Below, one piece after another: positions 15,354 through 64,000 of a stretch of DNA of 64,000 bases (position 1 is the stretch's first letter; each line of letters starts with the position of its first letter). The translations under genes were made by a program, and so were the position numbers. The notes under the pieces were generated by a model, which ran no database searches, was not told the DNA's origin, and saw only the letters and a list, made by a program, of their open reading frames with translations. The stretch covers positions 1 through 64,000 of the forward strand of contig JARBTJ010000015.1 in assembly GCA_029240245.1 (NCBI GenBank), written 5' to 3'. The DNA comes from Herbinix sp. Lineage in GTDB: Bacteria; Bacillota; Clostridia; Lachnospirales; Lachnospiraceae.

Positions 15354-15503
15354 AGGCGATTGCGAAACTCAAAATCTGTATTAATTGCGCACACAACATA
15401 TACTACTCCGGAGCGGAAGTTAAACCCGTTGGAAGCGTTGGAGCGTAGGAATAGTATGTGTTGTGTGTGCAATAGCAAAAACTATATTGTTTCGTAAACG
15501 CCT
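15354..15503 (+). mobile_element. 150-bp MITE, copy 1
   Basis: The ends form a terminal inverted repeat (AGGCGATTGCGAAAC against GTTTCGTAAACGCCT, 13 of 15 matching). Inner arms ATTGCGCACACAACA and TGTTGTGTGTGCAAT also pair, so the whole element folds as one long hairpin. The 13-bp sequence TAATGTAAAAGAA lies on both sides (15340-15352 and 15505-15517), one base off the ends, and is read as a target duplication. It has no ORF of its own. The same element occurs in the opposite orientation at 62061-62210. It ends 29 bp before the M42 aminopeptidase start. Confidence 0.85.
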
Positions 15504-55631: not shown

Positions 55632-55684
55632 AGGTGATTGCGAAACTCCGCAATAGCGATAACTATATTGTTTCGCAAACACCT
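55632..55684. mobile_element. 53-bp internally deleted MITE derivative
   Basis: AGGTGATTGCGAAAC and GTTTCGCAAACACCT pair 14 of 15 and match the ends of the 150-bp element at 15354 and 62061. The piece ACTATATTGTTTCG is shared with its right end. The middle of the element is gone. No flanking duplication was recognised, which suggests an old insertion or rearranged copy. It lies 75 bp before the chemoreceptor start. Confidence 0.75.
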
Positions 55685-61933: not shown

Positions 61934-62060
61934 AGGTCACCTCATTGTTAAGGAATCTGAATATTGTTATATTTTTAGCCATTATAACACAAGTATTCCC
62001 AAAACTTCAATAGTATACTGAAAGTGATTATAAGGGCCAACCCTTATTATAAAATAATAT

Positions 62061-62210
62061 AGGTGATTGCAAAACGATATAGTTTTTGCTATTGCGCACA
62101 CAACACATACTATTCCTCCACTTAAGCGTTTACTACGGGCTTAACTTCCGCTCCGGAGTAGTATATGTTGTGTGCGCAATTAATACAGGTTTTGAGTTTC
62201 GCAATCGCCT
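62061..62210 (-). mobile_element. 150-bp MITE, copy 2, in the fucI leader
   Basis: Same element as at 15354-15503, in opposite orientation (about 90 percent identical by eye). The ends AGGTGATTGCAAAAC and GAGTTTCGCAATCGCCT form the terminal inverted repeat. It is flanked without gap by a perfect 14-bp direct repeat TTATAAAATAATAT (62047-62060 and 62211-62224), which fixes the element ends and shows transposition. It ends 31 bp before the fucI ATG, leaving only the ribosome site between. Confidence 0.92.
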
Positions 62211-62241
62211 TTATAAAATAATATTTATGGAGGTAATTATT

Positions 62242-64000
62242 ATGGCAAAGAGCAGATTAATTGGTGACTATTCGGTTATCGGAATCAGACCGACGATTGA
62301 CGGACGCAGAGGAGTTCTTGGTGTCAGAGAATCCTTAGAAGTGCAGACAATGAATATGGCAAAAGCGGCAGCAGAGCTATTTACAAAGAACCTGAGATAT
62401 TCCAACGGAGAGCCGGTAAAGGTAGTGATTGCCGACACTACCATCGGACGTGTAGCTGAAGCAGCTGCCTGTGCGGACAAATTTAGGAAAGCAGGAGTGG
62501 ATATTACCCTAACCGTAACTCCTTGCTGGTGCTACGGTTCCGAGACCATGGATATGGACCCGATGACAATTAAGGGTGTATGGGGCTTTAACGGAACAGA
62601 ACGACCGGGAGCAGTTTATCTGGCTGCTGTACTTGCAGGTCATGCCCAGAAGGGGCTACCTGCCTTTGGCATCTATGGACATGATGTTCAGAATGCAGAT
62701 GACACCTCCATACCTGAGGATGTGAAGGAAAAACTATTACGTTTTGGCCGTAGTGCAGTTGCTGTAGCAACCATGAGAGGAAAATCTTATCTGCAAATCG
62801 GTTCCATCTGTATGGGTATCGCAGGCTCCATTATCAGTCCGGAATTCTTTGAGGAATATCTTGGAATGCGTGTTGAGTCTGTAGATGAGGTAGAGATTAT
62901 CCGCAGAATGACCGAAGAGATTTACGATAAAGATGAATTCGAAAAAGCATATGCATGGACGAAAGCAAATTGTCCCGAAGGCTTTGACAAAAATCCTATA
63001 AGTCTTCAGAAGACATCGGAGCAAAAAGAAGAAGAGTGGAAATTTGTTGTTAAAATGATGTGTATTATCAAGGATTTATTTAACGGTAATTCCAATCTTC
63101 CTGATTATGCAGAAGAGGAAAAGGTGGGACATAATGCAATTGTTGGCGGTTTTCAGGGTCAGCGTCAGTGGACGGACTTTTATCCGAACTGTGATTTCCC
63201 GGAATCAATGTTAAATTCCTCCTTTGACTGGGAAGGTGCAAGAGAACCGTATGTCTTAGCAACTGAGAATGATACCTTAAACGGAGCTACTATGTTATTC
63301 GGTAAATTACTGACCAATACCGCTCAGATCTTCGCAGACGTAAGAACCTACTGGAGCCCTGAGGCGGTTAAGATGGCTACCGGCTATGATTTAGAGGGAA
63401 TTGCGAAGGAATCCAAAGGCTTCATTCATTTAATCAATTCCGGTGCTGCCTGTATCGATGCCTGTGGTGAAGTAAAAGATGAGAACGGAAACGGTGTGAT
63501 CAAACCTTTCTGGGAAATGACTGAGGCTGACCAGAAATCCTGCTTGGATGCAACCACTTGGAATGCAGCAGATACAGGATATTTCCGCGGAGGTGGCTAC
63601 TCCTCCAGATTTGTAACCAGAAGCGAGATGCCGGTTACCATGATGCGTATCAATCTGGTGAAAGGAATTGGCCCTGTGATGCAGCTGGTAGAAGGCTATA
63701 CGGTTAATCTGCCTGAGGAAGTATCGGATCAATTATGGAAGAGAACAGACTATACTTGGCCTTGCACCTGGTTTGCTCCAAGACTTACCGGCGAAGGTGC
63801 ATTTAAATCCGCATATGACGTTATGAATAATTGGGGCGCTAACCATGGTGCCATCAGTTACGGACATATCGGAGCCGATGTGATTACGCTTTGCTCTATG
63901 TTAAGAATTCCTGTTTGCATGCACAATGTTCCGGAGGAAAAGGTTTTCCGTCCGGCTTGCTGGAATGCTTATGGAATGGATAAAGAAGGACAGGATTACA
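62242..64000 (+). CDS. fucI: L-fucose isomerase (3' end beyond the window)
   Basis: Interconverts L-fucose and L-fuculose, first step of fucose catabolism. 586 codons are visible; the family has about 590, so only a few residues are missing. Start ATG with GGAGG 8 nt upstream. Family blocks are [52 protein letters not shown] and a C-terminal [12 protein letters not shown] region. The Mn-binding Glu/Asp fall in the central domain. Next to the GH2 gene and AraC regulator; supplied with fucose by GH95. A MITE occupies most of its 5' leader. Confidence 0.93.

Follow-up and report, generated by a model that had tools for sequence, protein, structure and literature searches.

Bacterial IS elements with a known target preference mostly insert at short sites that are AT-rich or palindromic, or at special loci, and Tn7 and the class C group II introns prefer places where coding sequence is spared. 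Bacterial MITEs are in general short and non-coding, with IS-shared inverted repeats, target duplications, and a high copy number; according to PMC3852290, they can share only their borders with their IS. Among the members of IS1182, some target palindromes, and IS1272 takes the place of a stem-loop, a mode that differs from transposition with duplications (both from PMC5678879). Herein, we describe a MITE in front of the fucose isomerase gene fucI that shares the general traits of bacterial MITEs and that, unlike these, belongs to a type sitting just upstream of a Shine-Dalgarno (SD) sequence. In a search of the open full-text literature, none of the papers listed describes, by its title and opening abstract, an IS aimed at Shine-Dalgarno sequences.

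The window, by which we mean the whole analyzed stretch of 64,000 nucleotides, belongs to a genome (G000) of 3.78 Mb in 147 contigs that is 77% complete. Near its right edge, the first-pass annotation had described perfect 14-bp repeats around a 150-bp hairpin with no coding capacity, and both the sequence and the coordinates of these repeats are correct (Table 1). The two TTATAAAATAATAT copies are the sole matches at up to one mismatch in the 64-kb window (chance expectation 0.31), and the terminal repeats (AGGTGATTGCAAAAC vs the reverse-complemented AGGCGATTGCGAAAC) are identical at 13 of 15 positions. The 178-nt strand has a folding energy of -61.4 kcal/mol vs -32.6 on average for shuffled sequences (z -7.1), which none of 200 shuffles equaled. 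The lack of coding capacity is a fair description as well, the only ORFs overlapping the element being mechanical ones of 20-39 aa. The downstream product scores above the NCBIfam cut-offs as an L-fucose isomerase, and the insertion leaves the ribosome site and the ORF of fucI intact.

Table 1. Positions of the MITE copies and of the features around fucI in the 64-kb window
Feature	Position	Strand	Remark
Second 150-bp MITE copy	15354..15503	-	13-bp duplication; adjoins an SD-like sequence
Short form of 53 bp sharing these ends (end matches at 55632 and 55670)	55632..55684	-	
Left target duplication copy, TTATAAAATAATAT	62047..62060	+	12-14 bp depending on the chosen element start
150-bp non-coding MITE	62061..62210	+	imperfect terminal inverted repeats of 15 bp; inner inverted repeat of 26 bp
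Left terminal inverted repeat, AGGTGATTGCAAAAC	62061..62075	+	
Inner 26-bp inverted repeat of the MITE	arms 62091-62116 / 62155-62180		
Promoter-like match TTGAGT, 16 nt, TAAAAT	62192..62219	+	9/12 consensus match only; spans element and duplication
Right terminal inverted repeat, AGGCGATTGCGAAAC	62196..62210	-	read on the - strand
Right target duplication copy, TTATAAAATAATAT	62211..62224	+	
fucI Shine-Dalgarno core GGAGG	62229..62233	+	presumed insertion address; 4 nt from the 14-bp repeat
fucI, L-fucose isomerase	62242..64000	+	ATG at 62242; runs past the window end

The window's genome holds at least 40 near-full copies of the fucI MITE (40 of 121 candidates scored), and the right-end pattern GAGTTTCGCAAWYGCCT has 117 matches there at two mismatches vs 3 for a reversed control. 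The proposal of a MITE with target duplication, for which a copy count had been suggested as a check, is thus borne out. Pairing of the ends in the fetched loci of G000 gave 53 elements, 52 of which were analyzed after removal of an overlapping row (L031, 212 bp). Their lengths range from 36 to 186 bp (148-151 bp in 30/52), with the short forms keeping the ends and missing much of the central palindrome. Exact repeats of at least 5 bp flank 24 of these 52 copies, and 21 of them measure 10-14 bp (14 bp in five, taking the longest over four boundary choices); 28 copies are without any. Around the short form in the window, no exact duplication was found. The commonest left end in G000, AGGCGTTTGCGAAAC (13/52), is also the usual left end of the autonomous IS described below. 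In short, the feature is non-coding, short, and multi-copy, carries terminal inverted repeats with a target duplication, and has ends common to an autonomous element; classified by these traits, it is an ordinary copy of a MITE.

Two larger candidates were discarded, namely a supposed 1.3-kb element (L047), which is a complete 303-aa gene (LysR-like by look) between two MITE copies, and a supposed 1-kb autonomous copy in G000 (C7/C103), the ends of which are separate short elements or solitary and the enclosed genes of which do not have a transposase look. In the neighborhoods of L053, L003, and L031, two elements of the family adjoin or overlap, suggesting repeated insertion at the same leader.

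A very stable hairpin in a leader could also be a fixed regulatory RNA of fucI. The gene was found in 11 of the 34 genus genomes searched, and the element is missing from the 260 nt upstream of it in 10/10 other genus genomes read (nine orthologues at 80-88% protein identity and one at 60%). No Rfam family matched the element above its gathering score (best 24.9 bits vs 100), and for that reason a riboswitch or RNA-family reading was dropped. Against these absences and the copies spread over G000, a fixed RNA leader has a very slim chance; since the element is multi-copy in G000 and absent from the other fucI leaders read, we take it for a MITE. The relatives' leaders rule out an ancestral RNA feature, and a role may have been acquired later. 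In G015 (fucI protein 88% identical), the surrounding leader aligns without the element and the short target itself has diverged; by this alignment, the leader is orthologous and empty but does not reproduce the empty site letter for letter.

A likely parent group was found. The sequence AGGCGNTTGCGAAAC is present at one mismatch in 23/34 genus genomes, and some of its matches near contig ends continue into a common sequence leading to an ORF (MIPYKQLSLADIF...). The IS end leading to this ORF occurs in 7/34 genus genomes, in some over part of its length, and a relative of the transposase in 5/34; none was detected in the 77% of G000 that is available. Several contigs (G000:C6, G024:C2, G025:C43, G026:C144, and G031:C305 among them) end inside such elements, so their number may be underestimated in draft genomes, where autonomous ISs may also go unseen. 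Three transposases were aligned and used to scan species genomes, which brought up 176 relatives; the best 80 were kept as loci, picked by transposase and not by flank. By their record titles, these stem from Lachnospiraceae and other Clostridia, including Roseburia inulinivorans and Blautia massiliensis, with one bin labelled Bacteroidales. An autonomous IS with the kind of end that had been predicted exists in the same genus and at 80 loci in Lachnospiraceae and other Clostridia. A phage collection contained no match to the transposase, and a plasmid collection contained six matching records, the best being a 'hypothetical protein' of Roseburia sp. 831b (95.7%) and two distant ones being annotated as transposase.

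The IS copies vary little in length: both ends are present in 58, and 54 of these measure 1735-1810 bp. An open reading frame spanning 483-495 aa occurs in 46 of the 51 loci examined. Immediately outside the left end there is a T in 69/69 copies, and outside the right end an A in 65/65; with this invariant outer base included, the commonest ends are TAGGCGTTTGCGAAAC and GTTTCGCAATTACCTA. Because of this invariance, the element is probably one base longer per end, and the fucI duplication would probably read as 12 bp (TATAAAATAATA), with the remaining bases of the 14 agreeing by chance. Among the 52 MITEs of G000 the outer bases vary (left T 37, A 15; right T 34, A 12, G 6), so the 14-bp reading may still hold.

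With the outer base counted as part of the element, exact duplications flank 38 of the 58 two-ended IS copies, measuring 9 (1), 10 (5), 11 (16), 12 (10), or 13 (6) bp, and were not seen in the other 20. The first-pass annotation had taken a fixed 14-bp duplication as a sign of a mobilizing family that is not obvious; this is not supported, as the length varies (9-13 bp for the IS, 10-14 bp for the MITEs) and the likely parent is IS1182-related. Casposon Cas1 and the IS1 and IS4 types make duplications of about 14 bp, and duplication length alone would speak for one of these machineries. Such an origin is nevertheless highly improbable given the varying lengths and given that an IS of the same genus has matching ends and the same address.

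Some copies appear to bridge the IS and the MITEs. L122 (G024) is an internally deleted copy of about 1.1 kb that retains its two ends around a truncated transposase and is flanked by a duplication of 10-11 bp, and L105 (G009) is a 226-bp element keeping about 43 nt of the IS left end; as internally deleted intermediates, both support the kinship of IS and MITE. Among the same-genus matches to the IS end, L123 has no left end at four mismatches, and L128 and L127 repeat L105 and L113. The transposase of L143 (1-2103, G015) lies in two overlapping frames of 186 and 298 aa, which may reflect decay or a frameshift. Separately, L095, L116, L118, and L098 (G007, G001) represent a different hairpin MITE family of about 200 bp with similar ends (AGGCAATTGCGAAAC and the like) and a common inner stretch around GGTACTCTGAGACCG.

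At E<=0.1, DUF772 is found in 33/33 and DDE_Tnp_1 in 31/33 transposases, in that order (for L147, the DDE match stays under the Pfam cut-off with 18 of 23 bits), an architecture collinear with that of IS1182 (N-terminal DUF772 and C-terminal DDE_Tnp_1). The NCBIfam model of IS1182 (NF033551) is likewise matched by all 33 at E<=0.1, with scores that miss its 270-bit cut-off (72.2 bits for L147 and 23.7-32.2 bits for others). As they score below this cut-off, we classify the group by its sequences as IS1182-related and not as a member of IS1182. The IS5 models (NF033578-NF033581) match more weakly than IS1182: IS5_2 is found in 21/33 members (best 2e-07) and IS5_4 in 15/33 (best 8e-08), and L147 scores 25 and 22 bits, below the cut-off of 140. 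A Y-(2)-R-(3)-E-(6)-K signature marks DDE transposases of the IS4/IS5 kind and is present here (YKKRAVVEQTIQHLK in P0002), with Y420, R423, E427, and K434 invariant in the 33 aligned proteins. A structure model of L147 (mean pLDDT 76.5, moderate confidence) has the Tn5 transposase (E 2.5e-3, TM 0.35) and piggyBac as best Foldseek matches, none below 1e-3; these matches are compatible with a DDE core, and the resemblance to the Tn5 transposase is weak. Among PDB sequences, a profile search hit just one (E 0.27). Compared with the IS1182 members described in PMC5678879, the group is marked by duplications of 9-13 bp and by facing GAAAGGAG, its target being AT-rich DNA beside this octamer that is directly duplicated.

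The IS leaders have a feature of their own. In 31/33 of them, an exact complement of the transposase SD region (6 nt or more if GGAG is included, otherwise 7 nt or more) is found some 60 nt inward of the left end; the anti-SD and SD arms vary together (AGGAGTTGT, AGGAGATAT, AGGAGTTATT, AGGAGATGT, and AGGAGTTATAT; examples are L147, L148, and L102). In IS10 and IS50, transcripts entering from outside hide the transposase ribosome site. The anti-SD arm likely hides that site on such transcripts here, thus blocking read-through translation. Within the first 50 nt of the L147 left end, a palindrome (GGCGTTTGCGAAACGCC) overlaps the end; a GCCGCATAAATACGGC hairpin with a T run behind it is terminator-like toward the transposase.

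An unexpected property of the group is where its left end lies. Usable left flanks extend over 60 nt in 69 of the 80 loci (all 69 differing) and over 205 nt in 63. Facing the left end, the Shine-Dalgarno octamer GAAAGGAG is matched at 8/8 in 37, at 7 or more in 51, and at 6 or more in 61 of these 69 flanks, leaving eight below 6/8. The corresponding values are 0.08%, 1.4%, and 11.9% at random positions of the same loci (n=12000), and 0, 1, and 7 in the right flanks (n=65). The octamer sits 16-19 nt outside the left end in 53/61 flanks. An SD 5-mer starting 10-24 nt out occurs in 58/63 left and 6/62 right flanks (control 9.6%; p ~3e-53), and an SD combined with a start codon and an ORF of 50 aa or more in 34/69 left flanks, 2/65 right flanks, and 4.1% of random positions. 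Among 180 other SD genes of the same loci (chosen by a simple ORF rule and searched in a window that differs from the one for the IS flanks), the octamer is complete in 9 (5%) and matched at 7 or more in 32 (18%); with 8/8 in just 5% of these, it is not simply the usual SD.

Spacing is equally strict. In 33 copies with both an exact duplication (9-13 bp) and an octamer match of at least 6/8, the gap between the two is 4 nt in 30, 1 nt in two, and 11 nt in one. As this gap is constant while the duplication length varies, the joint on the SD side would be fixed and the far joint would float. In 392 genomes of the order, which may share species with the 80 loci, the exact 19-base left end occurs 52 times; 15 of these, a minority, have the complete octamer CTCCTTTC 13-17 nt before the end, and none has its mirror image there. 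Of the same-genus left ends, 13 distinct ones were inspected by eye, and each of them faces an SD-like sequence, including the left end AACCGTTTGCGAAAC of a 41% identical relative in G030.

Loose AT-rich targeting, followed by purifying selection that leaves copies in harmless leader positions, would fit the AT content of the duplications (78% vs 58% in the flanks) and the tendency of intergenic survivors to be upstream of genes anyway. However, it leaves unexplained why the spacing is fixed to one nucleotide in 30/33 copies of differing duplication length, why GAAAGGAG occurs in 54% of the IS left flanks vs 5% of other genes, why the IS is oriented to one side, and why some octamers have no clear gene start behind them (e.g., L154, L198, and L225). 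We therefore regard selection as an improbable explanation. The simplest reading of the observed copies, ends, and duplications, of the location statistics, and of the one-sided orientation and constant 4-nt spacing of the IS is that the transposase itself would read the octamer. Such an IS group resembles Tn7 and the class C group II introns in sparing coding sequence and differs from them in its mark, a short ribosome-site octamer with a 4-nt spacing at many genes.

The MITEs follow this address less exactly. An SD 5-mer lies 10-24 nt from one end in 44/52 G000 copies (control 19.4%, either side), and eight copies have no SD-like 5-mer on either side. The SD-facing end is the left one in 31, the right one in 12, and both in one, whereas for the IS it is almost always the left. 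The gaps of the MITEs are scattered from -3 to 5 (commonest 1 and 3; 21 rows), and an exact rule by which the T-type end of a MITE faces the SD was not established (p 0.05). At fucI, 4 nt lie between the 14-bp repeat and GGAGG (6 nt with the 12-bp reading), fewer than the 8 nt before GGAG under the IS rule. This closer spacing could come from the age of the copy, from divergence of the transposase, or from AT-rich duplications having been extended by chance. The fucI copy is presumably an ordinary, less exact case. The first-pass annotation was right that the element fills the leader up to the ribosome site; this position is probably not incidental, the Shine-Dalgarno sequence appearing to mark the insertion address.

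Very probably, the fucI MITE was moved in trans by the IS1182-related group, with a transposase that reads GAAAGGAG and joins one end 4 nt upstream of it. An IS of about 1.75 kb with a single DDE transposase, at home in Lachnospiraceae and other Clostridia, would mobilize the MITE in trans and would also have moved its relatives in G000. Its transposase would recognize the Shine-Dalgarno DNA octamer in the target, join one element end at the fixed point, and join the other 9-13 bp further upstream, yielding a duplication of variable length. Landing just upstream of the ribosome site would spare both this site and the coding sequence.

Whether the fucI copy now acts on its gene is a separate matter. 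The first-pass annotation had suggested that it could supply or block transcription: a -35 box in the element may join a -10 box in the duplication (the promoter-like match of Table 1), or RNase III may cut the long stem, for which the 26-bp inner stem would be suited. We consider such an effect rather doubtful. The 401 bp scanned contain eight promoter-like sites vs 1.6 expected; since most of these lie at other places or on the opposite strand, a single match says little, and no terminator-like site was found in the same 401 bp. Moreover, the right end of the MITE is not always TTGAGT; many copies read TATGAG rather than TTGAG, so that the idea of a hybrid promoter common to all MITE right ends was rejected.

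The main interest thus lies less in the fucI MITE than in its likely parent, an IS group with a one-sided, nucleotide-exact preference. A ribosome-site address is unusual for a bacterial transposon. It is likely that a group of transposases uses the SD octamer as a DNA address, with a 4-nt measure and a set orientation, and has thereby placed ISs and MITEs upstream of ribosome sites across Lachnospiraceae and other Clostridia, changing leaders and leaving genes unbroken. Targeting of this kind would explain high-copy leader hairpins that could otherwise be mistaken for riboswitches or small RNAs, and it would raise the question of how a transposase finds a Shine-Dalgarno sequence. If true, an IS aimed at ribosome sites would place mobile DNA upstream of many genes with their coding sequence spared, making the rewiring of expression easy.
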